Shown: positions 9,062 to 56,108 of the stretch, piece after piece | How positions within the stretch are numbered: position 1 is the stretch's first letter | Layout: each line of letters begins with the position of its first letter | Assembly: GCA_016218825.1 (NCBI GenBank) | Contig: JACRCV010000099.1 | Coordinates: 1-64,000, forward strand | Direction of reading: 5' to 3' | Source: Deltaproteobacteria bacterium | Lineage (GTDB): Bacteria > Myxococcota > XYA12-FULL-58-9 | Length of the DNA stretch: 64,000 bases | Program-made: the position numbers and the translations under genes | Notes under the pieces: generated by a model | Databases searched by the model: none | Told to the model about the DNA's origin: nothing | Seen by the model: only the letters and a program-made list of their open reading frames with translations

Positions 9062-9075
9062 GTGACATGTGTCAA

Positions 9076-9104
9076 TAGACTTAGTCCGGACTAAGTCGTA
9101 TTAT
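9076..9104 (+). promoter_or_regulatory. Promoter and palindromic operator of the toxin-antitoxin operon
   Basis: A perfect 20-bp palindrome, GACTTAGTCCGGACTAAGTC (9078-9097), fills the space between a -35-like TAGACT (9076-9081) and a -10-like TATTAT (9099-9104) that are 17 bp apart. Phd-family antitoxins normally bind such palindromes to repress their own operon. The -10 ends 6 nt before the antitoxin ATG at 9111. Confidence 0.75.
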
Positions 9105-9110
9105 GAGGCC

Positions 9111-9359: not shown

Positions 9360-9742
9360 AGTTGTTGCTCGACACCTGCACGTTTCTCTGGATGGTGGGC
9401 AAGCCGGAGGCGCTCAGCGCCCGGGCGCGCGCGGTGTTGGGGGATGCGACGAACGTGCTGCATCTGAGTGCGGTGTCGTCGTTCGAGATTGCGGTGAAAG
9501 CGGCCTTGGGGAAGCTCACGCTCATGGAGTCTCCCGAGGCCCTGGTGCCGCGGCAGATGCTGCGCAACGGCATCGTGCCGCTTTGCTTGGACCATGTGCA
9601 CGCCTTGAAGGTGCACGCGCTGCCGATGCACCACGCCGACCCCTTCGATCGCCTGCTCGTAGCGCAGGCGCAGGTCGAGCGCCTCACGGTCGTCACCCCG
9701 GATCCGGCGTTCGCGGCCTACGGCGTCTCGGTGTTGTGGTAG
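9356..9742 (+). CDS. PIN-domain toxin (VapC-like ribonuclease)
   Basis: The 128-residue product is a PIN-domain endoribonuclease, the toxin of a type II pair. The acidic metal-binding residues are in place: Asp6 in L-L-L-D-T, Glu44 in S-F-E-I-A, Asp98 (with Asp95) in H-A-D-P-F-D-R-L and Asp116 in T-P-D-P-A-F. Length is normal. The ATG overlaps the antitoxin stop, so synthesis of the toxin depends on antitoxin translation. The pair is most like the Phd/PIN (YefM-VapC) combinations often found singly on chromosomes. Confidence 0.88.
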   Translation: MKLLLDTCTFLWMVGKPEALSARARAVLGDATNVLHLSAVSSFEIAVKAALGKLTLMESPEALVPRQMLRNGIVPLCLDHVHALKVHALPMHHADPFDRLLVAQAQVERLTVVTPDPAFAAYGVSVLW

Positions 9743-39337: not shown

Positions 39338-40192
39338 TCAGAGCTCGAGGCGGAGCTGCAGCGACGGTCGGAGCGCGAAGCCGGCGGTGATGCTGCTCGA
39401 TTCGCTGCCGCCGTAGATCCTGCCCGTCGCATCCACGCGGTCGCCCTCGGCGGTGGTGTAGGCCGCTCTCAAGATCAAGGTCGAGAACCTGAGGTAGAGC
39501 GCGTCGATGAGCTTGCGGTCCAGGCAGAAGCCGAAGCCGGCGCCGACGGTCCAGGCCGAGCCGCGCTCGACGCCGTCGTAGGGGCCGTCATAGTAGCTCC
39601 GGTCGACGGCTTGCGACAGCCCGGCGTAGCTGAAGCCCGTGACCGCGAACGGTGACACCTCGACCGTGCCGCCCGGGTTCACGACGTTGCGCACGCCCAG
39701 GGACGCGGCCGCGGACCAGGCCGAGTCACTGGTGTTGCCGGAGGCGTCGCGGGCATAGTCGGCGCCGAGCTGCAGCAGAAAAGAGGCGTTCTTCTTGCCG
39801 TGACGCTCCACCATCAGCTGCATCTCCGGTCTGTTGGCCGTCGCCAGCACGACCGCGGGCGCGTCGAGGACCAACAGCAGGTCTCGAAGGTTGTCCGCGA
39901 AGCTGCTCATGCCGACACCGACCGCAAACGACCATCGCGGCCGGGGAGCGAGCTCGGGGACGGCGACCGGCGGCTCGACGGTGGCCACCTTCGCGGGCGT
40001 TTCGGGGGGCGTCGGTGTCGGCACCGGCACCGGCGTCGCGGGCGCGGCCTGGACCTCGGCCGGCGGCAGCTCCCGGTCGACGACCACCGGCTGACTCTCG
40101 CCCTCCGGCGGCGGCTCTTGTGCCAAGACCGCTGCGGCCGGAAACAAGATAGACAAACCGACACAGCTCGCGACGCGAACCCAAGCCATCAT
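39338..40192 (-). CDS. Outer-membrane beta-barrel protein with Pro-rich linker
   Basis: The product of about 284 residues has a signal peptide (to A-V-L-A-Q), a Pro/Val/Thr-rich periplasmic linker of about 50 residues, and a barrel-like domain of about 200 residues ending L-R-P-S-L-Q-L-R-L-E-L. Aromatic and Gly residues recur with strand spacing. GGAGGG lies just before two adjacent ATG codons (40192 and 40189). It resembles the truncated gene at the left edge of the window in layout. It is divergent from the large sensor operon, with 290 nt between, so the two may share a control region. Confidence 0.72.
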   Translation of the reverse strand: MMAWVRVASCVGLSILFPAAAVLAQEPPPEGESQPVVVDRELPPAEVQAAPATPVPVPTPTPPETPAKVATVEPPVAVPELAPRPRWSFAVGVGMSSFADNLRDLLLVLDAPAVVLATANRPEMQLMVERHGKKNASFLLQLGADYARDASGNTSDSAWSAAASLGVRNVVNPGGTVEVSPFAVTGFSYAGLSQAVDRSYYDGPYDGVERGSAWTVGAGFGFCLDRKLIDALYLRFSTLILRAAYTTAEGDRVDATGRIYGGSESSSITAGFALRPSLQLRLEL

Positions 40193-40482
40193 CACCCTCC
40201 AGGTTGGAAATCCCCAGCGCCCAGGTGTCCCAGGAAGCCGGTGCGGGTTCAATCCATGCCGGAGAAAAAGGCCGTCGGCGCCGCGTACTCAAATTGAGGA
40301 CAACCGCCCCGCGCATCGGCCGCGATCGACTGTCGCAGATCGGTCGGTCGCGGCGGTCGTAGAAGCGCGCCGGCGCCGGGCGGCGCGGGCGACCGGGCGC
40401 GCGCGCGGCCCTGTCCGGCCGGACCCGACCGTGGTACTGATTTCGAGTGCCGCAGGGGGAACCCGGAGGCGAGGAGCGGTCG

Positions 40483-43400
40483 ATGTCGAGGCTCACGCGG
40501 TCGGTGGGCGTTGCCCTCGCAGAGCGGCGCGCGGCCCTCACGGCGCCGCTCAACGCCGCTCGATCTCTCGCGGCGTGCCTCGCGATCTCGCTCGCCGCCA
40601 GCCCCGGCCACGCGTTGTCGCCGACCCGGCCGCTCGCGAGCGCCACCGTGCAGCACTGGAGCTCGGCCGAGGGTCTGCCGCAAGACTCGGTGAAGGCCAT
40701 CTTGCAGACCCGGGACGGCTATCTCTGGATCGGGACCGAAGAGGGCCTGGCGCGCTTCGACGGCGTGCGCTTCCACGTGTTTTCGCGCGCCAGCAAGCCG
40801 GCGCTGCCGCACGACTTCATCCGCTCGCTGTTCGAGGACGCCCAGGGCAGTCTCTGGATCGGCACCGACGGCGGCGGGCTGTTGCGCTACGCCGGTGGCG
40901 CGTTCACCACGCTCACCACCAAGGACGGGTTGACGTCGGACTCGGTGTGGGACGTCACCGAGGACCACGACGGCGTGCTGTGGATCGCGACCTTGGGCGG
41001 CGGCCTGAACCGCTACGCCGACGGGGTGTTCTCCCGTATCGGCGTCGACGACGGCCTGGCGTCGGCGGCGGTGGTCGCGCTCACGGTCGCCAAGGACGGC
41101 AGCGTCTGGGCGACCACCAAGGGCGCCGGCCTCGCTCGCATCGAAGCGGGTAAGGTGACGACGATCACCACCCGCGACGGGCTGTGCGCCGACGACCTGT
41201 GGGCGGTGCGCGAGGACCAGGACGGCGGCATCTGGGTGAGCACCGAGGGCAAGGGCGTCTGTCGTTACAAGGACGGCGCGTTCTCGCAGTTCACGACCGC
41301 CGACGGGTTGGCCGCCGACAGCGTCTGGTCGATCTACGCCGACCGCCAGGGCGCGTTGTGGTTCGGGAGCGAGGGCGGCGGCGTCAGTCGCTACGCCGAC
41401 GGGCGCTTCGAGACCTTGTCGACTCGGGACGGGCTCGCGAACGACATCGTCGTCTCGATCGGCGAGGACCACGAGGGCAGCCTCTGGCTCGGGACCTACG
41501 GCGGCGGCCTGGACCAGCTGCGCGAGCGCAAGGTGTCGGCGTTGACCCGCAGGCAAGGGCTCGGCGGCGACACGGTGTGGGCGGTGCGCGCCGCGGCCGA
41601 CGCTGCCTTGTGGGTGGGCTTGGACATCGGTGGCGCGGTGCGCTTCGGCGCCGGTGAGGCGCCGCAGCGCTTCGGGCCGGCGACCATCCCGGGGTTTCCC
41701 GCGACCCCGATTCGAGCGATCGCCTTCTGCCTCGGCGGCCGCACCTACCTCGGCAGCGAGGCCGGCCTGGTCGAGCTCAGCGGCAAGCGGTCGCGAACGC
41801 TGACCGTCAAAGACGGCCTGCCCGACGTCGAGATCCGGGCGCTGTTGTGCGACGCCGCCGACACCCTGTGGGTCGGGACCAAGGCCGGCGGCCTCGCGCA
41901 CTACGAGCGCGGTCGCTTCACGGTGCTCGGCGCCGCGGACGGGCTGAGCTCGCCTTACGTGCGCTCGATCCTCGACGCCAAGGACGGCAGCCTCTTCGTC
42001 GCCACCCCCGAGGCGCTGCACCGCTTCGCGGACGGTCGGCTCACGCGGATCCCGCTGCCGCCGCCATCGGCGCCGATGGAGCTCGGGCCGCTGTACCAGG
42101 ACCCGCAAGGGGCGCTGTGGATCGGGACCTTCGGCGCCGGGTTGTGGCGTTACCAGGACGGCGCGGTGAAGACCGTCGGCAGCAGCCAGGGGCTGTTCGA
42201 CGACACGGTGTTCTCCATCGTCGACGACGGCCTCGGGTTCTTCTGGTTCAGCTCCAACAAGGGCTTGTTCCGGGTGCTGAAGGCCGACCTCGAGGCGGCG
42301 CTCGCCGATCCGGGGCGCCACTTCGACTCGACGCCCTTCACCCAGGCCGACGGCATGCCGTCCTCGGAGTGCGCCGGTGGCGGCAACCCGCCGGCGTGGC
42401 GGGCGGACAACGGCCGGCTGCACTTTCCGACGGTGCGCGGCGTCGCGATCGTCGACCCCGGTCGGATCCCGTTCAACCACGAGCCGCCGCTCGTGCACCT
42501 GGAGCGGGTGCTCGCGAACGGCGTCGAGATCCCGTTTGCCGACGCCGGCCGGGCGGCGGTGATCCCCGCCGGCACCGAGCGGCTGCAGATCGACTTCACG
42601 GCGTTGTCGTTCGCGGCGCCGAGCAAGGTGCGGGTGCGGAGCATCCTCAAGGGCTTCGACGCCGGGCCGCGCGAGAGCTACGAGCAGCGCAGCGCCGGCT
42701 ACACCAACCTGCCGCCCGGGGACTACACCTTCGAGGTCGCGGCCACCAACGACGACGGCGTCTGGAGCCCTCGTCCGGCGACGCTGTCCTTGCACCTCGA
42801 GCCGCACCTCTACCAGACCCGTGGCTTCTTGCTCCTCACCGGCGTCGCGCTCACCGCCCTCATCTACGGGCTCTACGTGCTGCGCACCCGCCACCTGCGC
42901 GCCCGCCGCCGGCAGCTTTGCGCCCTGGTCGAAGAGCGCCGCCGCCTGTTGGCGTCGGAGAAGCGTCGGGCCGACGAGGCGCGCGCCGTGGTCGAGGAGC
43001 AAGCGCGCGAGCTCGCCGCCGCCGCCGCCGAGAAGTCGCTGTTCTTCGCCAACGTCTCGCACGAGTTCCGCACCCCGCTGACGTTGATCATCGGGCCGTT
43101 GGAGCGGATCTTGGCCGACCGCCTCGACGCCGCCGAGAAGCGCGAGCAGCTGGAGATGATGCGCGGCAACGCCGATCGGCTGTCGCGGCTCATAGACGAG
43201 CTCTTGGCGTTCTGCGAGCCGGACCGCAGCAAGCTGATCCTGAGCTGCAAGCACCTCGATCTCGGCCGCTTCCTCACCGCCAGCGTCGATTCGTTCCGGC
43301 CGCAGGCAAAGGCCAAAGGGGTGGCGCTCGAGCTCAACGGTTGCGCGTCGGGCCCGACCACGGTGTGGGCCGACGAGGACAAGCTCGACCAGATCGTCGT

Positions 43401-44949
43401 CAACCTGGTCGGCAACGCGCTGAAGTTCACCCCCGCCGGCGGCCGGGTGACCGTCAGCCTGAAGGGGTTGGCGCACGGCGCCACGATCACCGTCGCCGAC
43501 ACCGGCCCGGGCATGTCGGCCGAGACCCGGGCGCGGCTGTTCTCGCCCTGGCAGGGCGGTGACGGCGGGGCGGCGCACGTCGGCACCGGGCTCGGGTTGG
43601 CGTTGGTCAAGGAGCTCGTCGATCTGCACGCCGGCCAGATCTCCATCGACAGCGAGCCCGGCCACGGCACCCGTGCGTGCGTCGAGCTCCCCGCGGTCGT
43701 CGCCGACGCCGAGACCCCGGTCGCGGCGCTCGGCACCGGCCACGTGGGGTCGCCGAAGACCGCGCTGCAGCTCAGGGACGGGCGCGCCGACGCCGAGGAG
43801 AAGGACCTGGTGCGGCCGAACAGCCCCCGGATCCTGATCGTCGAGGACAATCGCGACATGCGGCTGTTCGTCAGCGCCGTCCTCAAAGAGGAGTATTCGG
43901 TGCACCGGGCGGCCGACGGCGAGGAGGGCTGGCAGCGGGCGCAAGAGCTCGGCCCCGACCTCATCGTCTCCGACGTCACGATGCCGTGGCTCGACGGCTA
44001 CGGTCTGTGCGAGCGCTTGCGGGCGCACCCGCCGCTCGCCGAGGTGCCGGTGTTGCTGCTCACCGGGGTCGCGACCGCGCAGCTGCGGGCCGCCGGGCTC
44101 GCCGCCGGCGCCACCGACTATCTCGTCAAGCCCTTCGATCCCCGCGAGCTCTCAGCCAGGGTGAAGAACCTGCTCGCGGCGCGGCAGCGCACCAAAGATC
44201 TGCGGCTCCTGTACCAGGCGCTGCACACCGCGGCCGGCACCCAGTGGCGGACGTTGATCCAACACGAGCGCATCGGCCGCTACGTGTCGAAGAAGCTCCG
44301 CCGCCGCATCCTCTCCGAAGACTCGGCGACCGAGTCGCTGGCGTCGACACGCAAGGTGGTGACGGTGTTCTTCTCCCACCTCGACGGCTTCGACCGCCTG
44401 GTCGGCACCATCCGCGCCGACGTGGTGCAAGACACCCTCAACCAGTACCTGAGCCGGATGGTGGAGCTCATCGACCAATACGGCGGCACCCTCGACAAGT
44501 TCATGGGCGACGGGGTGATGGTGTTGTTCGGTGCTCCGGACGAGCTCGAGCCCAAGGACCAGGCGCAGCGGGCGCTCCACATGGCGGTGCACATGTCGCG
44601 CGCCCTCGAGGAGCTCTGCCGGGGGTGGGGGCACAGCACGCCGGCGTGGGCCCAGATCCGCGCCCGGATGGGCGTCAACCAAGACTACGTCACCGTCGGC
44701 AGCTTCGGCTCGTCGACCTATGCCACCTACTCGGCGCTGGGCGGTGGCGTGAACCTGGCCAGCCGCTTGGCCTCCGCCTGCAGCCCCGGTCGGATCATGG
44801 TGAGCTACCGGGTGTACTCCCAGACCCGCGCCGACTTCGCGTTCGCGCCGCTCTTCGAGCGCGGCTTCAAAGGCTTCGCCCGGCCGCTGCGGGTGGCGGA
44901 GCTCGATCCGCAACGGCCCCCGGCCTCGGCCGCGGACGGACGCCGATGA
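40483..44949 (+). CDS. Sensor protein A: beta-propeller hybrid histidine kinase with class III cyclase domain
   Basis: The 1488-residue protein has a signal peptide, about 12-14 reg_prop propeller repeats (W-I-G-T-x-G-G-G-L-x-R-Y), a Y_Y_Y domain (about 700-770) and a membrane helix (about 781-801). These are followed by a kinase HisKA with His860 in V-S-H-E-F-R-T-P-L-T, an ATPase domain (Asn974/Asn978, D-T-G-P-G-M, G-T-G-L-G-L), a receiver with acceptor Asp1164 in S-D-V-T-M-P, and a class III cyclase domain (about 1290-1480). In the cyclase the first metal Asp is replaced by His1299 (F-S-H-L-D-G-F). The second, Asp1343, the base-reading Lys1339 and the transition-state Asn1424 and Arg1428 are present. 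It is thus a 'C2-like' half. GAGGAG precedes the ATG; the stop overlaps the start of gene B. Confidence 0.9.
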   Translation: MSRLTRSVGVALAERRAALTAPLNAARSLAACLAISLAASPGHALSPTRPLASATVQHWSSAEGLPQDSVKAILQTRDGYLWIGTEEGLARFDGVRFHVFSRASKPALPHDFIRSLFEDAQGSLWIGTDGGGLLRYAGGAFTTLTTKDGLTSDSVWDVTEDHDGVLWIATLGGGLNRYADGVFSRIGVDDGLASAAVVALTVAKDGSVWATTKGAGLARIEAGKVTTITTRDGLCADDLWAVREDQDGGIWVSTEGKGVCRYKDGAFSQFTTADGLAADSVWSIYADRQGALWFGSEGGGVSRYADGRFETLSTRDGLANDIVVSIGEDHEGSLWLGTYGGGLDQLRERKVSALTRRQGLGGDTVWAVRAAADAALWVGLDIGGAVRFGAGEAPQRFGPATIPGFPATPIRAIAFCLGGRTYLGSEAGLVELSGKRSRTLTVKDGLPDVEIRALLCDAADTLWVGTKAGGLAHYERGRFTVLGAADGLSSPYVRSILDAKDGSLFVATPEALHRFADGRLTRIPLPPPSAPMELGPLYQDPQGALWIGTFGAGLWRYQDGAVKTVGSSQGLFDDTVFSIVDDGLGFFWFSSNKGLFRVLKADLEAALADPGRHFDSTPFTQADGMPSSECAGGGNPPAWRADNGRLHFPTVRGVAIVDPGRIPFNHEPPLVHLERVLANGVEIPFADAGRAAVIPAGTERLQIDFTALSFAAPSKVRVRSILKGFDAGPRESYEQRSAGYTNLPPGDYTFEVAATNDDGVWSPRPATLSLHLEPHLYQTRGFLLLTGVALTALIYGLYVLRTRHLRARRRQLCALVEERRRLLASEKRRADEARAVVEEQARELAAAAAEKSLFFANVSHEFRTPLTLIIGPLERILADRLDAAEKREQLEMMRGNADRLSRLIDELLAFCEPDRSKLILSCKHLDLGRFLTASVDSFRPQAKAKGVALELNGCASGPTTVWADEDKLDQIVVNLVGNALKFTPAGGRVTVSLKGLAHGATITVADTGPGMSAETRARLFSPWQGGDGGAAHVGTGLGLALVKELVDLHAGQISIDSEPGHGTRACVELPAVVADAETPVAALGTGHVGSPKTALQLRDGRADAEEKDLVRPNSPRILIVEDNRDMRLFVSAVLKEEYSVHRAADGEEGWQRAQELGPDLIVSDVTMPWLDGYGLCERLRAHPPLAEVPVLLLTGVATAQLRAAGLAAGATDYLVKPFDPRELSARVKNLLAARQRTKDLRLLYQALHTAAGTQWRTLIQHERIGRYVSKKLRRRILSEDSATESLASTRKVVTVFFSHLDGFDRLVGTIRADVVQDTLNQYLSRMVELIDQYGGTLDKFMGDGVMVLFGAPDELEPKDQAQRALHMAVHMSRALEELCRGWGHSTPAWAQIRARMGVNQDYVTVGSFGSSTYATYSALGGGVNLASRLASACSPGRIMVSYRVYSQTRADFAFAPLFERGFKGFARPLRVAELDPQRPPASAADGRR

Positions 44950-47900
44950 TGCGCCGCGCGCTGGTCGCCGCCGTCGTCCTGGTCGGGGTCGCTTCGAGCG
45001 CTGCGGCGTGGGCGCTGTCGCCCGACCGGACGCTGACCCAATACGTCCTCGACGTCTGGCAGGTGGAGCAGGGCCTGCCGCAGAGCTCGGTGTGGGACAT
45101 CGTCGCCAGCGGCTCGGGCTACTTGTGGCTGACGACCGACGAGGGCTTGGCGCGCTTCGACGGCAATCGCTTCAAGACCTTCGACCTGCGCAACACCCCG
45201 GCGCTCGGCACCCGGGCGGTCAGCACCCTCTTCGAGGCCAAAGACGGCACGCTGTGGATCGGCACCTGGGGCGCCGGCCTGGTGTCGTACAAGGACGGCG
45301 TCTTCACGCCGCAGGCCGCGGCCGCCAAGCTCGACAACGTCGAGATCAACGACCTGACGCCGGACCCCTACGGCGTCGTCTGGGCGGCGACCAGTCGGCA
45401 CGGGGTGCTGCGCTACGAGCGCGGCGCCGCGACCGCGATCACCACCGCGGAGGGGTTGTCGACGAACAGCATCACCAAGGTGTGGGTCGATCGGGCCGGG
45501 CGGCTGTGGGTCGGCACCGAGGACGACGGCGTCGCCCAGATCGCGCTCGGCGAGCGCTCCGCGACCCTGCAGGCGACGTTCTTGCCCGGGGCGCCGATCA
45601 CCGCGTTCTTCGAGGCGCCGCAGGGCGACCTCCTGGTCGGCACCCGGGGCCGGGGCCTGTGGCGGATCGGGGCCGACGTGGCGACCGTCGAAGAGACCCA
45701 GCCGCCGGCGCCGGTCACCGCGATGCTCATCGACAAGGACGGCCGCTTCTTCGTCGCCACCGACGGCGCCGGGGTCTGTCGCCTCGAGGGCAACCGCTAC
45801 GTCTGTCTCGGCGTCGACGACGGGCTGTCGAGCATGCGGATCGCGTCACTCTGCGAGGACCAGGCCGGCAGCCTGTGGGTGGGGACCAAGGACGCCGGAT
45901 TGGCGCGGCTGCGCGAAGGCCGGGTGGTGTCCTACACCACGCGCGAAGGGCTGGCGCACAATCAGGCGCGCGTCGTGCTCGCGGCCGCCGACGACTCGAT
46001 GTGGGTCGGCACCCTCGGCGGCGGCATCAGCCGCTTCGCGCGCGGTCGGGTCGCCGGACACTTCTCGCGCGCTGACGGCCTGCCGGGCTTGATGGTGCGC
46101 GCTCTGCAGCAGCGCCGCGACGGCACGATCTGGATCGGCACCTTCGACGGCGGCCTGGCGCAATACGACGGCCGGCGTTTCACCGCGGTCACCAAGCCCG
46201 CGGCGCTGGCGTTGGTGCAGGCGTCGTCGTTCGCCGAGGACGAGCGCCGGACGTTGTGGATCGGGACCTACTTCAACGGCCTGTTCGAGACCGACGGCCA
46301 GGTGGTCAAGCATTGGGGTGCGGCCGAGGGGCTTTCCAGTGACCGCATCCGCGTCCTGCTCGCGGGCGCCGGCGGCGCGTTGTGGATCGGCACCCACGGC
46401 GGCGGCCTCGATCGGTTGCAGGCAGGAAAGGTCGAGGCGGTCGACCTGGGCGCCGACGTCCTGCACCCCATCGTCTACGCGCTGTTCGAAGATCAGGAGG
46501 GCGCGCTCTGGGTCGGGACCGGCGGCGCCGGCTTGCTGCGCCGAACGCCCTCGCAGCTGGCGCGGGTGACGACCGCCGACGGCCTGGTCAGCAACACCAT
46601 CTATCAGATCCTCGAGGATGAGAGCCGCGACCTGTGGATGTGCTCGAGCCGCGGTATCTTCAAGGTCCGGCGCGCCGAGCTCGAGGCGTTCTTCGCCGGG
46701 CGGCTGTCGCAGGTGCACGCCGACGTCTTCGGGCGCTCCGACGGGGTGCAGAGCTCGCAGTGCGGCGGCGGCTCGCAGCCCGCCGGCGCGGTGGACGGCG
46801 CCGGGCGGGTGTGGTTCCCGACCTCCAACGGGGTGATCGTCGTCGATCCCGCCGCCACCAAGGCGCCGCGGGCGTCGCCGACCGTGGTCATCGAGCGGGT
46901 CGCCGCCGACGGTGTCGACTACAGCGCGGCGGCGGTGGGCGAGCTCGCCGCCGGCACCCGCGATCTGGAGCTGCAGTACACCGCGCTCGGCCTCGCGGCC
47001 CCGGAGAAGGCCCGGTTCCGGCACCGGCTCGAAGGCTTCGACCACGACTGGGTCGACGCCGCCGGCGGTCGCACGGCGCGCTACACCAACCTCGACTCGG
47101 GCGCCTACCTGTTCGAGGTGGCGCTGCAGGACGACACCGGGGCGCCGTCCGCGACCCGGGCGCAGGTGGCGTTCAGCGTCCGGCCGCAGCTGCACGAGCG
47201 GCGCGCCTTTCAGATCTTGCTCGCCGCCTGTCTCTTGGCGCTCGGGGTCGCCGGCTATCGGACGCGCTTGCGGGCGTTGCAGCACGCCGACCGGGTATTG
47301 GCGCGCCTGGTGGAGGAGCAGACCCGGAGCTCGTACGAGGAGACCCGCCGCGCCGAGGCGGCGCGCGCCACGATCGAGGCGCAGTCGGAGCAGCTGCGCG
47401 AGATCGAGCGGCGCAAGATGTCGTTCTTCGCCCGGGTCTCCAACGAGTTCCGGACGCCGCTGACCCTGATCATGGGGCCGCTCGAGGGCATCCTCGCCGA
47501 CCGCTTCAACACCGCCGAGGAGCGCGAGCAGCTCTACATCATCTTGCGCAACAGCCGGCGGCTGCTGCGCCTCATCAATCAATTCCTCGATCTCTCGAAG
47601 ATCGAGCAGGCGCAGATGGGCCTGGCGTGTCGCGCGGTGCAGCTCGACGAGTTCCTCAAGGGGGTCATCGAGTCGTTCCTGCCGTTTGCGCGCCGCAAGA
47701 GCATCGAGCTGAAGCTCTACGTCGAGGGCGAGCTCGGCCCGGTGTACGCCGACCCCGAGAAGATGGAGAAGGTGTTCTTCAACATCCTGTCGAACGCCGT
47801 CAAGTTCACGCCGGTTGGCGGCAAGGTCGCGGTGATCTTGCGCGACCGCGACGCCCAAGTTGAGGCGCTGGTGCGCGACAGCGGCCAGGGGATCCCGACC

Positions 47901-49307
47901 GCGGACCTGCCGAAGATCCTGACGCCGTTCGCGCTCGTCGACGCCGCCGAGGGCGGCGACCACGAGGGGACCGGGATCGGGCTGTCGCTCGCGCAGCAGA
48001 TCGTCTTGATGCACGGCGGCAGCATCGGCATCGACAGCGTCGCCGGGGTCGGCACCGACGTGAAGGTCAGCCTGAAGAAAGGCACCGCCCACCTGCGGCC
48101 GCAGCAGCTCGTCGCCGACGCCGCCACCCGTGACGTCGCCGACATGCCGGCGCGGGCCGCGGTGGAGATGGCCGGGCCGCGCTGGGAGCAAGAAGACGTC
48201 GAGCCCGGACCGACCGGCGACGGTGAGACCGTGCTGGTGATCGACGACGAGCGCGACGTCCGCCGCTACCTGAAGAGCGTGCTCCAGGAGCACTACACCG
48301 TGTACCTCGCCGCCGACGGCTTGACCGGGCTCGAGCGGGTGAAGGAATTGATGCCGCACCTGGTGATCTCCGATCTGCGGATGCCGAACCTCGACGGCCT
48401 CGAGCTGGTCCAGGCGCTGCGCGACATGCCGGTCGCCCGGCACATCCCGGTGTTGATCCTCTCGGCGCACACCAGCGAAGAGAGCCGCCTCGAGCTCTTG
48501 AACCGGGGCGCCGACGACTACCTGGCCAAACCGTTCGGCTGCGAGGAGCTGCTGCTGCGGGTGCAGAACCTGCTGTCGGCGAGGCGTCAGGAGCGCGAGC
48601 TGTTCGGCGCGGCGCGCGCCCTCGAGGAGAAGATCAAGTCGCAAGGCGTCGCGCTCGAGCGCGGCCAGCGCTTCGCGCAGTACGTCGCCGCCGGGGTGCT
48701 GGAGCAGGCGGCGGCCACCGACAGCTCCTGGCAGCTCGCCACCGAGCGCCGCGCGATCACCGTGGTCTGCACCGACCTCAGAGGCTTCACCGCGCTCACC
48801 GACAGCATCGAGCCGGAGCTGATCGAGCGCATCTTGAACGCCTACCTCGCGGCGATGATCCGGCAGATCGACCATCACGGCGGCACCCTCGACCGCATCA
48901 TGGGCGACGGCATGACGGTGTTGTTCGGCGCCCCGTGGCAGATGGCGCCCGAGGCGCAGTGCGAGCAAGCGGTGCGAATGGCGGTGGCGATGCAGCAAGA
49001 CCTACGGGCGCTCGGGGCCGAGTGGCTCGAGGAGGGCCTGGACCACAGCATCGAGCTGCGCATCGGCATCCACCACGGCCAGGCGACGGTCGGCAACTTC
49101 GGCACCCCGGAGCAGATGGCCTACGCCGCCATCGGCACCAGCGTCAGCCTCGCGCGGCTGCTCGAGACCACCTGCACCCCGGGACGCGTCCAGATCTCGA
49201 GGTCGGTCGCCGCCCTGCTGCAAAACACCTACCCCCTCACCCCCGCCGTCGAACGCGACTTCGGCCCGGGCCTCGGCAACCTCGAGGCCATCGAGGTCGT
49301 CTCGTAA
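44946..49307 (+). CDS. Sensor protein B: paralogous propeller kinase-like protein with complementary cyclase domain
   Basis: The 1453-residue protein repeats the architecture of protein A: signal peptide, propeller repeats, Y_Y_Y domain, membrane helix (about 755-773), kinase-like module, receiver (acceptor Asp1143 in S-D-L-R-M-P) and class III cyclase domain (about 1268-1450). Two features are reversed. The phospho-acceptor His is Asn833 (V-S-N-E-F-R-T-P-L-T), although the ATP-binding boxes N-I-L-S-N-A, D-S-G-Q-G-I and G-T-G-I-G-L-S are intact. In the cyclase both metal residues, Asp1277 (T-D-L-R-G-F) and Asp1321 (M-G-D-G-M), are present. The Lys is Arg1317, the Asp/Thr is Ala1394, the Asn is Ser1401 and the Arg is Leu1405, so this is a 'C1-like' half. 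Its ATG overlaps the stop of gene A as ATGA, giving coupled, near-equal synthesis. Confidence 0.9.
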   Translation: MMRRALVAAVVLVGVASSAAAWALSPDRTLTQYVLDVWQVEQGLPQSSVWDIVASGSGYLWLTTDEGLARFDGNRFKTFDLRNTPALGTRAVSTLFEAKDGTLWIGTWGAGLVSYKDGVFTPQAAAAKLDNVEINDLTPDPYGVVWAATSRHGVLRYERGAATAITTAEGLSTNSITKVWVDRAGRLWVGTEDDGVAQIALGERSATLQATFLPGAPITAFFEAPQGDLLVGTRGRGLWRIGADVATVEETQPPAPVTAMLIDKDGRFFVATDGAGVCRLEGNRYVCLGVDDGLSSMRIASLCEDQAGSLWVGTKDAGLARLREGRVVSYTTREGLAHNQARVVLAAADDSMWVGTLGGGISRFARGRVAGHFSRADGLPGLMVRALQQRRDGTIWIGTFDGGLAQYDGRRFTAVTKPAALALVQASSFAEDERRTLWIGTYFNGLFETDGQVVKHWGAAEGLSSDRIRVLLAGAGGALWIGTHGGGLDRLQAGKVEAVDLGADVLHPIVYALFEDQEGALWVGTGGAGLLRRTPSQLARVTTADGLVSNTIYQILEDESRDLWMCSSRGIFKVRRAELEAFFAGRLSQVHADVFGRSDGVQSSQCGGGSQPAGAVDGAGRVWFPTSNGVIVVDPAATKAPRASPTVVIERVAADGVDYSAAAVGELAAGTRDLELQYTALGLAAPEKARFRHRLEGFDHDWVDAAGGRTARYTNLDSGAYLFEVALQDDTGAPSATRAQVAFSVRPQLHERRAFQILLAACLLALGVAGYRTRLRALQHADRVLARLVEEQTRSSYEETRRAEAARATIEAQSEQLREIERRKMSFFARVSNEFRTPLTLIMGPLEGILADRFNTAEEREQLYIILRNSRRLLRLINQFLDLSKIEQAQMGLACRAVQLDEFLKGVIESFLPFARRKSIELKLYVEGELGPVYADPEKMEKVFFNILSNAVKFTPVGGKVAVILRDRDAQVEALVRDSGQGIPTADLPKILTPFALVDAAEGGDHEGTGIGLSLAQQIVLMHGGSIGIDSVAGVGTDVKVSLKKGTAHLRPQQLVADAATRDVADMPARAAVEMAGPRWEQEDVEPGPTGDGETVLVIDDERDVRRYLKSVLQEHYTVYLAADGLTGLERVKELMPHLVISDLRMPNLDGLELVQALRDMPVARHIPVLILSAHTSEESRLELLNRGADDYLAKPFGCEELLLRVQNLLSARRQERELFGAARALEEKIKSQGVALERGQRFAQYVAAGVLEQAAATDSSWQLATERRAITVVCTDLRGFTALTDSIEPELIERILNAYLAAMIRQIDHHGGTLDRIMGDGMTVLFGAPWQMAPEAQCEQAVRMAVAMQQDLRALGAEWLEEGLDHSIELRIGIHHGQATVGNFGTPEQMAYAAIGTSVSLARLLETTCTPGRVQISRSVAALLQNTYPLTPAVERDFGPGLGNLEAIEVVS

Positions 49308-49531
49308 CCCGCCCTGCGGACGACCCGTCCCCGCCTCTCCACCATACAAAGGACGCGCCGTCCACCAGCGCCCCCGACCGCCCCCGCGGCCGGTCTCCGC
49401 AGGGGCTCGAAACTCACTGAAACATCAGAGGAAAGTCTACTGGCGCGCGCGCCCGGGACACCGCAGGCCGGGTCGGAGGCCGGGTATGTGGCTTGCATAC
49501 ATGTAGGATGCTGCAGAAGTGGAGGCGCGCG

Positions 49532-51709
49532 ATGCCGATGGGTGACGGTGGAAAAGTCTATCGAATGTGGATCGGGGTGGCCTTGGTGCTGGCAACCTCG
49601 GTGACCATTGGTTGCAGCGGATCGGCGGGGGTACTGACCGGCAGCAAGGACGCGCCGGACGCCCATCCGGGCGGGGACAACGACAACCCGTCCGAAGACC
49701 CCCTGCAGGCCGACGCCAAGACGGCGGACCACGACCGCGCGGTTGCCGACCGCGACGGCGGCGACGCGACGGTGGTGGAGGTGGTGCCGCCCTCCAACTG
49801 GGACGGGGTCTGGGACGTCTCCGGGCACGACGGGCGCGGGGCTTACACCGGTCAGGTCGAGATCAGCAGGCACCCGGGCGAGCGGCGCTTCACCCGGGTG
49901 ATTCAATACACCGGGCTCACGGTGGAGGACGGCCGCGAGCTCTGGTGGCTGTGGCAGAGCCCGGTGAGCGTCAGCGACAGCGCGCTGACGACCGCGGTGA
50001 CGCTGCAGCGCGGCGCCTTCGTCCGGGCCCGGGGGACGCTGACGCGCAGCATCGCCGAGCCTCCCGACGTCGTGACGGGATCGGGGGCGCTGTTGTCGCC
50101 GACCACCGCGAGCGCCGACTTCGCGGGGCCGGGGGTCGCGGCGCACGACACCTGGTCGAACCGGCGGGCCTCGACGACCCCGATCTTCGCGGGCATCGAC
50201 CGGGTGCTCAAGCCGACGCACGCGCCGATCCCACCGGCGACGCGCGACGCGCTCTTCGAGGCCTTCTCGTCGTCGCCGTCCACCGGCGACTACGCCGGGT
50301 TCTACAACCGCCCCGAGGTGCTGCCCTACGTCGACAACCCCGAGTTCAAGGCGGCGCAGCACGGCCTCTTCGTCGATCGCACCGACCTGGACTTCTACCG
50401 CGCGCACCCGAACGCGCTCCGGGTCGTCAACAAGGTCGTCGACGACATCAGCCTGCTCGAGACCCTGTCGCGCGCCAACGCCTTCAAGGACACGCTCGCC
50501 GCCAAGGCGGCGTTCTTCGACGCCGAGATGCGCACCAAGTACATCGACCCCGGCGGCGGCATGGTGGTCTCCGGCTACGTCGCCGGCGCGCCGCCTTTGC
50601 GCTTTCCGGGCGGTGACGCGGCGCTGTGGACCGGCTGCTACGTCGCCTCGCAGGCGTTCCGCTTTCAGAGCACCGGCGACACCGCGGCGTACGACCACGT
50701 GGTCCAGGGCGTGACGTCCTTGATGACCCTCCAGGACATCACCGGCGATTCGACCCAGTTCGCGCGCACCCTGCGGCCCGCGACCGGCGCCCTGACCGAC
50801 AACTGGTACGCCGGCGCCGGGCCGTTCGCGAGCCTCGAGTGGAAGGCCGGCGGCAACAACGACATGGTGAAGGGGATGTTCTACGGCTATCTGACCGGCT
50901 GGCTGACGCTCTGCGACCCGCCGACCGCGAGCACCGCGGCGCTGTGCGCCCACCTCGCCGCCAACGTCGAGACCTTGGCGAGCGACGTGCCGGTGGCGAA
51001 GGCGCAGACCCGGGTGAACAGCCTGTTGTCGAGCTGGCTCGCGGCGCTCGTGACCGGCAGCTACTCGTGGTTGTCGAAGGCCGAGGCCCAATGGGTGTTC
51101 TGGGAGGCCTCGGGGCTGCACTACATCTCCGGCGGCACGCCGGTCGACCTCACCACCTATCAAGACCTGCCCTTCGTCATCGACTCGAGCGGCACGCACC
51201 TGAACTTCGTCAGCTACACGACCCTGATGCTCCTCGCTACGCGGAAGCCGCTGCCGCTGCACCCGAGCGCCAAGAACGACATCCGCGCCGGCATCGAAGC
51301 GACCTGGGCGAGCCTGCACGCGCAACGGCTGGCCCTCTGGGGTCTCGCGGCGGCGGCGTTCGCGTCCGATCCCGACCCGGAGGCCCTCGCAGACGCCAAG
51401 CTGCGTCTGCGCGAGGTGTCGTGTCCGAAGACCCGGGCCGACGTCGACCTGCGGGTCGATCCGGCCTTCGTGATGTCGCCGTTCCCGAGTCTGCCGTGGA
51501 AGCGCGATTGGGATCAGGCCGGCGGCGACGGCCGGACCCAGGCGCTTCGCGGCGTGCCGCTGTTCGAGATCGGCTTCGACGACTACATCTGGAAGAACGG
51601 CGCGCTCGACTACAGCATCAACAGCTCCTGGCGCGAGGTGCCCGGCACCGACTTCGTGCACGCCTACTGGTTCGCGCGTCGCTTCGGCCTGCTGCAGTCG
51701 ACCGACTGA
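49532..51709 (+). CDS. Large lipoprotein, possibly an alpha/alpha-toroid domain
   Basis: The 725-residue product is a lipoprotein with Cys28 in T-I-G-C, after a leader starting at ATG 49532, which has GGAGG 6 nt upstream. An Asp/Gly/Ala-rich stretch of about 60 residues follows, then about 110 residues of beta-type sequence, then a long helical region (about 240-720). The segment A-L-W-T-G-C-Y-V-A-S-Q-A-F-R-F-Q-S-T-G-D and repeated helix-loop-helix units resemble the (alpha/alpha)6 toroid of sugar-processing enzymes. It lies 224 nt downstream of the sensor pair in the same direction. Since reg_prop/Y_Y_Y sensors often detect glycans, it could be a target or partner of that system; this is inference. 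Confidence 0.65.
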   Translation: MPMGDGGKVYRMWIGVALVLATSVTIGCSGSAGVLTGSKDAPDAHPGGDNDNPSEDPLQADAKTADHDRAVADRDGGDATVVEVVPPSNWDGVWDVSGHDGRGAYTGQVEISRHPGERRFTRVIQYTGLTVEDGRELWWLWQSPVSVSDSALTTAVTLQRGAFVRARGTLTRSIAEPPDVVTGSGALLSPTTASADFAGPGVAAHDTWSNRRASTTPIFAGIDRVLKPTHAPIPPATRDALFEAFSSSPSTGDYAGFYNRPEVLPYVDNPEFKAAQHGLFVDRTDLDFYRAHPNALRVVNKVVDDISLLETLSRANAFKDTLAAKAAFFDAEMRTKYIDPGGGMVVSGYVAGAPPLRFPGGDAALWTGCYVASQAFRFQSTGDTAAYDHVVQGVTSLMTLQDITGDSTQFARTLRPATGALTDNWYAGAGPFASLEWKAGGNNDMVKGMFYGYLTGWLTLCDPPTASTAALCAHLAANVETLASDVPVAKAQTRVNSLLSSWLAALVTGSYSWLSKAEAQWVFWEASGLHYISGGTPVDLTTYQDLPFVIDSSGTHLNFVSYTTLMLLATRKPLPLHPSAKNDIRAGIEATWASLHAQRLALWGLAAAAFASDPDPEALADAKLRLREVSCPKTRADVDLRVDPAFVMSPFPSLPWKRDWDQAGGDGRTQALRGVPLFEIGFDDYIWKNGALDYSINSSWREVPGTDFVHAYWFARRFGLLQSTD

Positions 51710-51837: not shown

Positions 51838-52704
51838 ATGACCGCCTTCCGGGTAGGAACGAGCGGCTTCAGCTACAAGGAGTGGCGCGGGATCTTCTAT
51901 CCCGAGGCGCTGCCGGAGCGGCTCTTCCTCGGCTTTTACGGCGAGCGCTTCGCGACCGTCGAGATCAACAACACGTTCTATCGCATGCCGGCGCCGGCCC
52001 TGCTCGCCAAGTGGAAGGCCGAGGTGCCGCCGGCCTTCATCTTCGCGCTCAAGGCGCCGCAACGCATCACTCACTACAAGCAGCTCGCGGACGTCGCCGG
52101 CGACGTGCAGCAGTTCTTGGAGGTCAGCGCCGGCCTCGGTTTGCAGCTCGGGCCGCTGTTGTTCCAGCTGCCGCCCTATCTGCGCCGAGATCTCGGCAAG
52201 CTCCGGGCGCTGCTGGCGCTCGTGCCGCCCGCGCGTCGGGTCGCGCTCGAGTTCCGCCATCCGTCGTGGCACGACGCCGAGACCTACGCCGTGCTCCGCG
52301 ACCACGGCGCGGCCCTGTGCCTGGCGGACACCGACGCGATGCCGGAGGCGGCGCCGGTGGTGTCGACCGCGCCGTGGACCTACGTCCGGTTGCGCCGCGA
52401 GCACTACAACAAGGCGGCCCTCGCGTCGTGGGCGCACGACCTCGAGACCTTCACCGAGGCCTTCGTGTTCTTCAAGCACGAGGAGCGCGGCGCCGGGCCG
52501 GCGGTGGCCGCGGCGTTCGCGGCGCTGGTGGGGGAAGAGCGCCTCCCGGCGCCGGTGGCCGCGGCGGTCCGGCCTGCGGCTCTCAGCCCGGCAGGCGCGC
52601 CGCCAGCCGTTCGAGGGCCGCGACGAGGTCGGGCTCCTCGGTCAACACCGGCCGCAGTGGATCGCCCAGCTTATCGAGCCGCCGCCGCGACGTGCGGATG
52701 GTGA
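51838..52704 (+). CDS. DUF72 (YecE-like) family protein
   Basis: The 288-residue product shows the DUF72 TIM-barrel pattern: V-G-T-S-G-F-S-Y-K-E-W-R-G-I-F-Y-P near the start, the E-I-N-N-T-F-Y-R-M-P motif, F-I-F-A-L-K-A-P, and A-L-E-F-R-H-P-S-W in the middle. The reaction is unknown. The family's usual C-terminus comes near residue 235; the last 40 residues are Pro/Ala/Arg-rich and run over the 3' end of the convergent ligD (122-nt overlap), so they may have arisen from loss of an earlier stop. Confidence 0.88.
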   Translation: MTAFRVGTSGFSYKEWRGIFYPEALPERLFLGFYGERFATVEINNTFYRMPAPALLAKWKAEVPPAFIFALKAPQRITHYKQLADVAGDVQQFLEVSAGLGLQLGPLLFQLPPYLRRDLGKLRALLALVPPARRVALEFRHPSWHDAETYAVLRDHGAALCLADTDAMPEAAPVVSTAPWTYVRLRREHYNKAALASWAHDLETFTEAFVFFKHEERGAGPAVAAAFAALVGEERLPAPVAAAVRPAALSPAGAPPAVRGPRRGRAPRSTPAAVDRPAYRAAAATCGW

Positions 52705-55105
52705 ACGCCGCGGGGTCGAGCTTCGGGCCGACCTCGCGCCAGGTCAGCGGCATCGACACCGGCGCTCCGGGGATCGGTCGCACCGCGAACGGCGCCACCA
52801 GGAGCCGGCCGTGGCCGTTCTGGCCGTAGTCGAGGTAGACCCGGCCGCGGCGCGCCGCGAGCGGGCGCGTCGTGGTCGCGATGTCGGGGTGGCGGCGCTC
52901 GACTTCGCGCGCCAAGATCTCGGCGAGCGCGCGCCCCTGCTCGTAGGTGCAGCGCCGGCCGAGGGGAATGAGCACGTGCAGGCCGCTCTGGCCGCTGGTC
53001 TTCGGGTAGCTCGGCAAGCCCACCGTGGTGGCGAGCTCGTAGAGAGCGCGCGCCAGGGTGACGACGTCGGCGAAGGGCGCGCCCTTCGGGTCGAGGTCGA
53101 GGATGCACCAGTCGGGGGCAGCCAGCGTCGCGACCCGGCTCGACCAGATGTGCAGCGGGATGGTGCCGAGGTTCGCGAGGTAGGCGAGCGCGGTGGCGTC
53201 GTCGCAGACGAAGTAGTTGATGTCGCGCTCGGTGTCGCCGCTCCAGAGGCGCTCGGTTCGGATCCAGCTCGGCACGTAGGTCGGCGCGTCCTTTTGGAAG
53301 AACGACTTGCCGTCGATGCCGTCGGGGTAGCGGGTCAGGACCACCGGCCGGTCGCTCAAGTACGGCAGCAGCTCGGGGGCGACGTCCTGGTAGTAAGCGA
53401 TGAGATCGCCCTTGCTGTAACCCTCGGCCGGCCAAAAGACCTTGTCGAGGTGAGTGTAGGGGACGACCTTCACCTCTGGCTCGGGGCGAGGCGGCGCCGG
53501 CGGCGCGTCGCCGGTCCGGGGGTCGAGGCTGCAGTCGGCGAGCGGCTTGTCGTCGCGCACGCGCAAGAACACCGGGTGGCGCAGACAGCCGTCCGCGGTC
53601 CTCTCGGCGTAGCGAACCTCGCACGCGAAGCGCGGCGTGACCCAGACGTCGGCTCGGGACACTGCGCCGACCGCGCGGCAGGCGGGGCGGGCCCGGACGT
53701 CGGCGCGCAGGCGCTCGAGGAGCGCTTCGCGGTCCCGCTCGGTCATCCCGGTGCCGACCTTGCCGCACCAGACGAGAGCACCGTCGACGTAGGCGCCGAG
53801 GTGCAGCGCCCGGGCGCCTACAAGCCCGCGGCCGGGCTTGGCGTAGCCGACCACGACGAAGTCGGCGGTGGTGAGGGCCCGCACCTTCAGCCAGGTCTTC
53901 TGGCGGCCGGGGCGATACGGGCTGTCGGCGCGCTTCGCGACGATCCCTTCGAGGCCGAGCCGGGTCGCGGCGTCGTAGAGCTCCCGGCCCCGGGTCTCGA
54001 CGTGGGCGACGAAACGTACCGGGCCGAGCGCCGGCGCCACCCGCGCCAAGAGCGCTTTGCGGGTCGCGAGCGGCAGGTCGCCGAGGTCGAAGCCCTCGAG
54101 GGCCGGCAAGTCGAAGACGAAGTAGGTGGCGGGGTGCAAGACGCTCAGCGCCGCGATGTCGGCGGCGCGCGTCTGATGGGCGCGCTCGGCGAGGAGCTCG
54201 AAGCTCGGCCGGCCGGTCGCGTCGGTCACCACGATCTCGCCGTCCATGACCAGCCGGTACGGCAGCGTCGAGAGCGCCAGCGCCACCTCCGGAAACAAGT
54301 GGGTGGCGTCGCCGCCGCGCCGATACCGCAACCGCACCTCCGGGTCGCGGCTCGCGAGCAGCCGGAAGCCGTCGTACTTCGGCTCGAACAGCCAGCCGGC
54401 GCGGGAGAACGGCGCGGCCGCGGTCTCGGCGAGCATCGGCAAGAGGGCGTCGAGCGCGATCGGCCGCGGCGTGGCCCCGAGGGCTCTGGCCTCGGCCGCG
54501 AGGTCTCGGGCGAGGGTCGTCGCTCGGGCGCGCTCTTCGATCGTCAGGCCCGAGAGCACCGAGGGCGCGGGATAGCTCATGCGGTCCAGGTCGGGGGGCG
54601 CGAAGGCGTCGGGCTTCTTGATCAGCAGCCAGTCTTTGCCGGTTCCGCGTTTGCCGCCGGTGCGGACCAGGGTCCAGAGCCCCTTGAGCTTGTAGCCGTG
54701 CAGCGTGAACAACAGCTTGCCGAGGGTGACGCCGGCCGCGGGATCGGAATGCGGCTCGAAACGTCCTCGGTCCCACAAGATCGACGCGCCGGCCCCGTAG
54801 TTGCCGTCGGGGATCACGCCTTCGAAGTCGCCGTAGGCCAGCGGGTGGTCCTCGACGTGGGCGGCGAAGCGCTTCTCGGCCGGGTCGGCGGCGGGGCCCT
54901 TCGGCAGCGCCCACGAGGCCAGGACGCCGCCGATCTCGAGCCGCAGGTCGTAGTGGAGCATTCGGGCGTCGTGCAGGTGCACCGCGAAGCGCAGCGGCCC
55001 GGCGCCGATGGTGGCGGCGGGCGGGGCGAAGGGCTCGGGGGTGCGGCCGGCGGCGCGTTTGCCGCGGTAGGCGGCGAGGCGCAGATCGTGGTTGGCGCGG
55101 CTCAT
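52583..55105 (-). CDS. ligD: Non-homologous end-joining DNA ligase D
   Basis: LigD repairs double-strand breaks with Ku. The 840-residue product has the domain order phosphoesterase (about 15-170), ATP-dependent ligase (about 200-510; nucleotidyl-acceptor Lys243 in K-Y-D-G-F-R) and primase-type polymerase (about 545-835, with D-L-D-P-K-G and H-I-W-S-S-R). This is the Pseudomonas-like order, not the mycobacterial one. The ATG at 55105 is preferred because the following A-Y-R-G-K-R-x-x-G-R-T-P-E-P is the standard LigD beginning; a longer frame to 55180 would run into ku. Only 22 bp separate it from the divergent ku start. Confidence 0.94.
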   Translation of the reverse strand: MSRANHDLRLAAYRGKRAAGRTPEPFAPPAATIGAGPLRFAVHLHDARMLHYDLRLEIGGVLASWALPKGPAADPAEKRFAAHVEDHPLAYGDFEGVIPDGNYGAGASILWDRGRFEPHSDPAAGVTLGKLLFTLHGYKLKGLWTLVRTGGKRGTGKDWLLIKKPDAFAPPDLDRMSYPAPSVLSGLTIEERARATTLARDLAAEARALGATPRPIALDALLPMLAETAAAPFSRAGWLFEPKYDGFRLLASRDPEVRLRYRRGGDATHLFPEVALALSTLPYRLVMDGEIVVTDATGRPSFELLAERAHQTRAADIAALSVLHPATYFVFDLPALEGFDLGDLPLATRKALLARVAPALGPVRFVAHVETRGRELYDAATRLGLEGIVAKRADSPYRPGRQKTWLKVRALTTADFVVVGYAKPGRGLVGARALHLGAYVDGALVWCGKVGTGMTERDREALLERLRADVRARPACRAVGAVSRADVWVTPRFACEVRYAERTADGCLRHPVFLRVRDDKPLADCSLDPRTGDAPPAPPRPEPEVKVVPYTHLDKVFWPAEGYSKGDLIAYYQDVAPELLPYLSDRPVVLTRYPDGIDGKSFFQKDAPTYVPSWIRTERLWSGDTERDINYFVCDDATALAYLANLGTIPLHIWSSRVATLAAPDWCILDLDPKGAPFADVVTLARALYELATTVGLPSYPKTSGQSGLHVLIPLGRRCTYEQGRALAEILAREVERRHPDIATTTRPLAARRGRVYLDYGQNGHGRLLVAPFAVRPIPGAPVSMPLTWREVGPKLDPAAFTIRTSRRRLDKLGDPLRPVLTEEPDLVAALERLAARLPG

Positions 55106-55120
55106 CACCATACCTATATT
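55092..55120 (+). promoter_or_regulatory. Promoter of ku, overlapping the ligD start
   Basis: TTGGCG (55092-55097), a 17-bp spacer and TATATT (55115-55120) precede the ku ATG at 55128 by 7 nt. The -35 lies inside the first codons of ligD. On the other strand the same AT patch reads TATAGG (55118-55113), 7 nt before the ligD ATG, so both genes may use one melted region. Confidence 0.55.
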
Positions 55121-55127
55121 GGGTCGC

Positions 55128-56108
55128 ATGCCGGCGCGCGCCATGAGCTCGGCGACGTTATCGTTCGGCCTGGTCGCCATTCCGGTGAAGATCTACTCGG
55201 CCTCGGCCGCCTCCGAGGCGGTGTCCTTCAACCTGCTGCACAAGAAGTGCGGCTCGCGGGTCAAGCAGCAGTACATCTGCCCCACCGACGACGGCGCGGT
55301 CGTCGAGCGCGACGACATGGTGAAGGGCTACGAGTTTCAGAAGGGCCACTACGTCACCTTCACCGCCGACGAGCTCAAGGCGATCGAGGAGGAGGCGACC
55401 CAGGCGATCGAGATCACCGAGTTCGTGCCGGCGGCGACCGTCGACCCGGTCTACTTCGACAAGGCCTACTACCTCGGCCCCGAGAAGGGCGGCGACAAGC
55501 CCTACCGGCTCCTGATCGCAGCGATGCAAGAGACCGGCCGGGTCGCGCTCGCGAAGTACGCCGGCCGCGGCAAGCAGTACCTGGTGATGGTGCGCGTCAA
55601 GGACGGCGCGCTGGTGATGCAGCAGCTGCACTACGCCGACGAGGTCCGGCCGTCCTCCGAGGTGCCGGTGCCCACGGCGGCGGTGGGCGACACCGAGCTG
55701 CAGCTCGCGGTGCAGCTGGTGTCGCAGATCGCCAAGGACGAGTTTCACCCCGAGGCGTACCACGACGACGTCAAAGAGCGGCTGCTCGGTCTGGTGCAGA
55801 AGAAGATCGAAGGCCGCGAGACCACCATCGCCGCGCCCGAAGCGCCCAAGGCGCAGGTCATCGACCTGATGGAAGCCTTGAAGGCGAGCCTGGGCCAGAC
55901 ATTCAAGGGTGGAGCGAAGGCCGGTCCCCGGGCCGCCGAGCCGACGCCGGCGACCCCGACGCCGCGCGAGGTGACGACTCTGAAACCGGTGCCGAAAGCT
56001 GCACCGGCGGAAGGTGCGCCGGCCCGCAAGCCGGCCAAGCGCGTCGAGCGCCTTCCCGGTGCGGCGCCGTTGCCGGCGACCGGCAAGGCCCGCTCGCATC
56101 CGCGGTGA
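55128..56108 (+). CDS. ku: Ku end-binding protein
   Basis: Bacterial Ku forms a ring on broken DNA ends and recruits LigD. The 326-residue product has the canonical start S-S-A-T-L-S-F-G-L-V-A-I-P-V-K-I-Y, then F-N-L-L-H-K-K-C-G-S-R-V-K-Q-Q, the G-Y-E-F-x-K-G-x-Y-V motif and a core ending near residue 240. The last 75 residues are a Lys/Pro/Ala-rich tail like those that contact DNA and the ligase in other bacteria. ATG 55128 and ATG 55143 are both possible; the first fits the promoter spacing. There is no ribosome-binding site. Confidence 0.95.
   Translation: MPARAMSSATLSFGLVAIPVKIYSASAASEAVSFNLLHKKCGSRVKQQYICPTDDGAVVERDDMVKGYEFQKGHYVTFTADELKAIEEEATQAIEITEFVPAATVDPVYFDKAYYLGPEKGGDKPYRLLIAAMQETGRVALAKYAGRGKQYLVMVRVKDGALVMQQLHYADEVRPSSEVPVPTAAVGDTELQLAVQLVSQIAKDEFHPEAYHDDVKERLLGLVQKKIEGRETTIAAPEAPKAQVIDLMEALKASLGQTFKGGAKAGPRAAEPTPATPTPREVTTLKPVPKAAPAEGAPARKPAKRVERLPGAAPLPATGKARSHPR

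Follow-up and report, generated by a model that had tools for sequence, protein, structure and literature searches.

Two overlapping genes of a Deltaproteobacteria bacterium, here termed A and B, encode sensor hybrid kinases whose C-terminal class III cyclase domains have lost catalytic residues in opposite halves of the cyclase site. Together, the two proteins can therefore supply the residues of one complete site and no more. B has also lost the phospho-acceptor His of its kinase half, which A retains. With moderate confidence, these features suggest that A and B may form an obligate heterodimer that has a single cyclase site and a single phospho-His. Both genes lie in a window of 64,000 nucleotides (contig JACRCV010000099.1) from a draft genome of 6.54 Mb in 121 contigs.

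Architecture and genomic context of the gene pair

Gene A (40483..44949, + strand) encodes a protein of 1488 aa that consists of an N-terminal region, a Reg_prop propeller, Y_Y_Y, one TM, HisKA, HATPase_c, a receiver, and a class III cyclase. Gene B (44946..49307, + strand) encodes a protein of 1453 aa with the same domain order. The starts that were used are ATG 40483 for A, which is preceded on its 5' side by GGAGG/GAGGAG, and ATG 44946 for B. The ATGA gene overlap that was described in the initial annotation is present as ATGATGA, where the stop of A (TGA) occupies 44947-44949 and B starts at 44946. The interval drawn around the pair in that annotation (44290-49307) covers B but cuts off most of A, including its sensor, kinase, and receiver.

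The Pfam order Reg_prop, Y_Y_Y, HisKA, HATPase_c, Response_reg, and Guanylate_cyc is common to A and B. In both translations, a hydrophobic segment sits between Y_Y_Y and HisKA. The two proteins align collinearly from end to end with 36% identity over 1434 residues, and by this alignment they are full-length paralogues. The periplasmic-type Reg_prop beta-propeller region of A (PF07494) was placed at 40615..42402 (+ strand), with approximate limits. The HATPase_c domains of A (43372..43695, + strand) and B (47751..48080, + strand) both exhibit the N, G1, and G2 boxes. The receiver domains of A (43831..44163, + strand) and B (48231..48563, + strand) have Asp1164 and Asp1143, respectively. With Reg_prop, Y_Y_Y, HisKA, HATPase_c, and receiver in order, both proteins are hybrid histidine kinases with a Reg_prop sensor (HTCS-like). 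However, HTCS-like hybrid kinases have an AraC-type regulator as output, whereas A and B have a cyclase output instead.

The genes around the pair were dropped as a functional clue since no CRP-like or cyclic nucleotide gene was found among the ten neighbours scanned. A 738-aa lipoprotein-like protein with no Pfam match is encoded immediately 3' of B (49493-51709). A 304-aa protein, also with no Pfam match, is encoded divergently from A (39338-40252, - strand); a signal-peptide-like start and an outer-membrane-like C-terminus were read in it by eye. LigD, an 865-aa protein with three activities, and Ku are encoded by divergent, overlapping open reading frames (52583-56108) just downstream of the pair, beside a DUF72 gene; they constitute a bacterial end-joining locus.

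Catalytic residues and predicted folds of the cyclase domains

According to a structural study of the mycobacterial cyclase Rv1625c, bacterial class III cyclases carry all catalytic residues in each chain and form homodimers with two sites (PMC4174876). Neither A nor B has the complete set per chain that characterises this usual bacterial homodimer. When the residues are listed in the order first metal Asp (Me-a), Lys, second metal Asp (Me-b), base residue, Asn, and Arg, A reads H-K-D-S-N-R and B reads D-R-D-A-S-L.

The cyclase domain of A (44353..44844, + strand) has a broken metal half, where His1299 (CAC, 44377..44379, + strand) replaces the first metal Asp and Asp1343 (Me-b) is kept. The base/transition-state half of A is intact (K1339, S1417, N1424, and R1428). 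The cyclase domain of B (48750..49232, + strand) has an intact metal half (D1277 and D1321) and a broken base/transition-state half (A1394, S1401, and L1405). The codons of this half of B, read at 49125..49160 (+ strand), are GCC for A1394, AGC for S1401, CGG for R1404, and CTG for L1405.

All catalytic residues and residue numbers quoted in the initial annotation (H1299, K1339, D1343, S1417, N1424, and R1428 for A; D1277, R1317, D1321, A1394, S1401, and L1405 for B) proved to be exact, and the complementary losses that it described are real. Its reading of R1317 in B as a loss of Lys did not hold. Arg is the commonest state among the closest relatives (DRDTNR in 7 domains), and R1317 is no loss because Arg at the 'Lys' position is usual in the propeller-sensor cyclase subfamily. 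It is the Lys of A that is unusual at this position.

The residue columns were confirmed by homology to the solved homodimeric class III cyclases CyaB (3r5g) and CyaC (1wc1). The losses in B are not alignment slips since there is no indel near the lost Asn and Arg, and the spacing from the Asn to the PGR motif is equal in A and B. R1404 stands one residue before the lost Arg of B and might compensate slightly for it.

The cyclase domains of A and B were modelled as monomers with AF2 from four-sequence alignments. Both models exhibit the class III fold, with mean pLDDT values of 85.2 for A and 76.7 for B. Together with homology to Guanylate_cyc (PF00211), these predicted folds place both domains among the class III nucleotide cyclases. 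The best fold match of both models is CyaC (1wc3). A C1/C2-like preference of A or B in the fold searches was considered and dropped as both models best match the same bacterial homodimers (CyaC/CyaB).

The residues of the pair correspond to a C1/C2-type split, where both metal Asp are found in one domain (B) and Lys, Asp/Thr/Ser, Asn, and Arg are found in the partner (A). On residues alone, H1299 of A facing A1394, S1401, and L1405 of B would give a dead mirror site. A also has base-reading residues of the adenylyl type (Lys with Asp/Thr/Ser), namely K1339 and S1417, which point to ATP.

Asymmetry of the kinase halves

The HisKA domain of A (43033..43212, + strand) has the phospho-acceptor His860 (codon CAC 43060) in the sequence FFANVSHEFRTP. 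In the HisKA domain of B (47418..47609, + strand), this His is replaced by Asn833 (AAC, 47442..47444, + strand) in the sequence FFARVSNEFRTP. The His of the DHp region is kept in A and in three single-gene relatives of the same build (L243, L246, and L249), and it is absent only in B. A dimer of A and B would carry a single phospho-acceptor because A has H860 and B has N833.

The kinase of B lacks the His but has retained the N, G1, and G2 boxes and the receiver Asp, so its HATPase_c domain could phosphorylate A in trans. The two proteins thus resemble a FasBC-type kinase pair, in which one member has an ATP-binding domain but no phospho-acceptor His and the other member keeps the His. The loss of the DHp His in B is a second, independent asymmetry of the pair, and it supports a mixed A/B pair.

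Survey of 148 cyclase domains

The rarity of the losses was surveyed in 148 distinct cyclase domains from all loci examined in which all six positions were aligned. Similarity to A and B was the main route by which these domains were collected, and the part from the host genome came from an unbiased PF00211 search. D-K-D-T-N-R was found in 119 of the 148 domains and D-R-D-T-N-R in seven. The Me-a Asp is kept in 145 domains, the Asn in 145, and the Arg in 144.

Loss of Me-a was observed only in A and in the second (C2) domains of two ADCY10-like fused proteins of the host (E-K-H-T-N-R), so that the substitutions besides that of A are Glu only, in C2 halves of split cyclases. Loss of the Asn was observed only in B and in the first (C1) domains of the same fused proteins (D-H-D-V-H-A and D-H-D-V-H-E). 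Outside the fused proteins, Me-b is lost only in the upstream member of a tandem pair from Acidobacteriota (L244). In this sample, every domain that lacks a metal Asp or the Asn belongs to a pair. This rarity outside paired domains supports a mixed A/B pair.

The two ADCY10-like proteins of the host (L096, G000:C68:217-4710, - strand; L097, G000:C21:6658-10440, - strand) have tandem cyclase domains in a single chain followed by AAA_16, and TPR_12 was also detected in L096. The best PDB match of L096 is human ADCY10. Both proteins represent a bacterial fused C1/C2 split: the metal Asp are retained in C1, where Asn and Arg are gone, and the metal Asp is missing from C2, where Lys, Thr, Asn, and Arg remain. 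Three other surveyed domains (L214, L219, and L220) have Ala at the base-reading position and are otherwise complete (DKDANR); an altered substrate choice is possible for them.

Under uniform random loss, a complementary outcome is expected in 2/50 cases (five positions, with 1 and 3 losses) or in 2/90 cases (six positions, with 1 and 4 losses). If structural constraints make losses group by half, the chance of the complementarity of A and B rises to about 1 in 2. By a whole-motif conservation score, A and B fall in the lowest tenth for all segments tested, with no opposite half-by-half decay. Half-by-half decay of the surrounding motifs was thus ruled out as extra support.

Relatives and phylogeny

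No orthologous A/B pair was found in the same genus, in the same family, or in 195 genomes of the phylum that were searched with A (58 of them also with B). None was found on GTDB contigs in two scans, the second of which used weak patterns, or on plasmids. In the phylum, the best matches are HK-receiver-cyclase proteins whose sensors differ and whose sites are complete. In four relatives, conservation of the A/B region at the DNA level is absent save for patches, one of which lies over the Ku end of the query.

Among 396 Acidobacteriota genomes, nine have propeller-sensor cyclase relatives, eight with one copy in the stretch examined and one with a tandem pair. No propeller-type member was found among those examined from 399 genomes of the phylum of G200. 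The members of the subfamily in Acidobacteriota consist of three single genes of the full A/B architecture (L243, L246, and L249), shorter propeller-cyclase genes, and a tandem pair of short forms (L244).

L243, L246, and L249 are the closest full-length relatives of A and B (35-38% identity). They exhibit the same order of Reg_prop, Y_Y_Y, HK, receiver, and cyclase, but they are single genes with complete sites, retaining both metal Asp, Thr, Asn, and Arg, and with an intact DHp His. Since these relatives are complete, the common ancestor was most likely complete, and A and B most likely both lost functions after duplication. L249 (G423:C183, 9042-14906, - strand) is a 1955-aa protein in which a GAF-like region, inserted between Y_Y_Y and HK, and Ser/Thr kinase motifs in the C-terminal part were also read by eye, so that it probably carries a histidine kinase, a cyclase, and a Ser/Thr kinase in one chain.

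The L244 pair (G638:C253, genes 3304-6516 and 6468-9635, + strand) is the only comparable tandem pair that was found, and its loss pattern differs from that of A and B. Its upstream member reads D-G-E-S-N-R, with Glu in place of the second metal Asp and Gly at the Lys position, and its downstream member is complete (D-R-D-T-N-R). The L244 pair is an independent duplication because its two members group with each other in the tree (support 93/95). A and B form long branches, and support for grouping them as sisters is weak on the propeller region (63/62), with no resolution on the kinase-cyclase region.

Proposed heterodimer

The pair would have arisen when a propeller-sensor hybrid kinase-cyclase was duplicated in tandem long ago. 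The two propeller sensors would lie outside the cell, and the coiled coil and DHp helices would pair A with B. His860 of A would serve as the single phospho-His and would be phosphorylated by the ATPase domain of B, of A, or of both. The phosphate would pass from His860 to one or both receivers, which would alter the packing of the C-terminal cyclase heterodimer. In the one working cyclase site, B would contribute D1277 and D1321, and A would contribute Lys1339, Ser1417, Asn1424, and Arg1428. The product of this site would likely be cAMP. The mirror site, which is composed of the metal half of A and the base half of B, would be dead and may serve as a regulatory pocket.

We infer the dimer, the direction of phosphotransfer, the catalysis, and the product from the sequences, domain order, residues, predicted folds, and rarity of the losses. 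The reading given in the initial annotation is partly supported as a whole; the obligate heterodimerisation, inactive homodimers, and ATP substrate that it proposed are likewise inferred from sequence here. The kinase asymmetry and the survey strengthen the heterodimer, and the absence of orthologous pairs, the motif-wide score, and the Arg of the subfamily weaken it. The intact predicted folds and the unusual Lys of A also speak for it, and the different pattern of the L244 pair, the weakly supported sister relation of A and B, and a possible metal-binding role of His1299 speak against it. A doubly obligate form, in which the kinase has one phospho-acceptor (in A), the cyclase has one composite site, and the dead mirror site is free for regulation, is suggested more tentatively, at somewhat below an even balance.

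The low scores of A and B everywhere, with no contrast between halves, are the main reason for caution. They would also fit two pseudo-enzymes, in which the cyclase domains are decaying or have no role beyond dimerisation or nucleotide sensing and make no cyclic nucleotide, and in which kinase signalling is kept with A as the kinase and B as a His-less modulator, like RetS/GacS or DivL. The long branches, the phospho-acceptor His also gone from B, and an arrangement kept in no orthologous pair in the genomes searched point the same way. However, the predicted folds and most motif residues are intact in both domains, one complete site, and only one, remains across the pair, and isolated decay is rare, with no unpaired domain among the 148 having lost a metal Asp or the Asn. 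Two pseudo-enzymes are thus considered rather unlikely.

His is a possible metal ligand, and metal binding, for example of Mn2+, may persist at His1299. A could then be active as a homodimer if His1299 and Asp1343 bind Mn2+ or Mg2+ well enough, or it could act with B as an accessory pseudocyclase and pseudokinase that tunes it. Asp1343 and the Lys, Ser, Asn, and Arg are all present in A, which also has the only phospho-acceptor His of the pair. An active A is nevertheless improbable, since Me-a is Asp in nearly every surveyed domain and otherwise Glu only in C2 halves, and in split cyclases the metal Asp come from the C1 half (PMC4174876). We give very little weight to a consensus or assembly error that would make A, B, or both ordinary homodimeric cyclases. 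The key codons are each one base from the canonical ones (CAC against GAC in A; AGC against AAC and CTG against CGG in B), which also counts against the heterodimer, and the species is represented by a single draft genome. However, B has three independent changes in its base half and a further one at the DHp His, the frames are open with GC3 of 0.94-0.95, and complementary placement in halves is not expected from errors. Besides A and B, 14 open frames of the host genome account for 16 PF00211 matches, among which A and B could find other partners (A with a canonical partner, for example). This is hardly probable since the propeller-kinase-receiver scaffold and overlapping genes are found only in A and B, and the other cyclases examined differ in architecture.

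Comparison with known systems

The heterodimer of A and B would be close in its split to mammalian transmembrane adenylyl cyclases (tmAC), which are C1a/C2a pseudo-heterodimers. It has been reported that in their C1/C2 pair the metal Asp pair comes from one domain and Lys, Asp/Thr, Asn, and Arg come from the other, with one working and one dead site (PMC4174876). B corresponds to C1 and A corresponds to C2. However, the tmAC is one polypeptide with 12 TM helices, whereas A and B are encoded by two bacterial genes and have propeller sensors, kinases, and receivers. The animal soluble guanylyl cyclase (sGC) alpha1/beta1 is similar to A and B in that two separate genes encode divided site residues. 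Its metal Asp come from alpha (D486 and D530) and its Arg comes from the other subunit, and the homodimers are inactive as the residues are shared out (PMC3591389). The sGC differs in that it makes cGMP, has an NO-regulated haem sensor, and has no kinase, whereas the Lys and Ser of A suggest ATP. A and B belong to neither the tmAC nor the sGC family, being encoded by two bacterial genes and built on a hybrid kinase. The ADCY10-type soluble adenylyl cyclases, including L096 and L097, are split like A and B, but a single chain carries both of their domains, with AAA_16 after them and with no membrane sensor or kinase.

Paired sensor kinases like A and B are found in FasB/FasC, RetS/GacS, and the ChrS pseudokinase with HrrS (PMC12675982, PMC9491836). 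In FasB/FasC of group A Streptococcus, FasC gives His246 and FasB gives the kinase domain, and two-hybrid assays exhibit heterodimers but not homodimers (PMC12675982). These systems have no cyclase domain, and their split has been shown by experiment, whereas that of A and B is read from sequence. In chytrid fungi, the heterodimeric rhodopsin guanylyl cyclases NeoR/RGC1 are encoded by two sensor-cyclase genes and are active only as a mixed dimer (PMC8815786). They are eukaryotic and have a light sensor, and RGC1/2 keep all catalytic residues, so that the cause of obligate pairing differs from that of A and B. Since obligate pairing is possible without residue loss (PMC8815786), such loss is not required for pairing, but it would make pairing necessary for activity. 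No report of a bacterial two-gene split class III cyclase was found in the open-access literature.

If the heterodimer of A and B is true, the step from a homodimer to a split heterodimer that has been inferred for animal cyclases would have occurred independently in bacteria. The complete single-gene relatives constitute a close outgroup, so that the order of the losses and the need for pairing are open to direct testing. The dead mirror site would be a candidate for a pocket that, like the forskolin site, serves in regulation. The pair would parallel, in bacteria, the C1/C2 and sGC alpha/beta arrangements of animals, on a hybrid-kinase scaffold that combines the signals of two extracellular propellers. 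It would then act as an AND-gate, where any cAMP needs both sensors.
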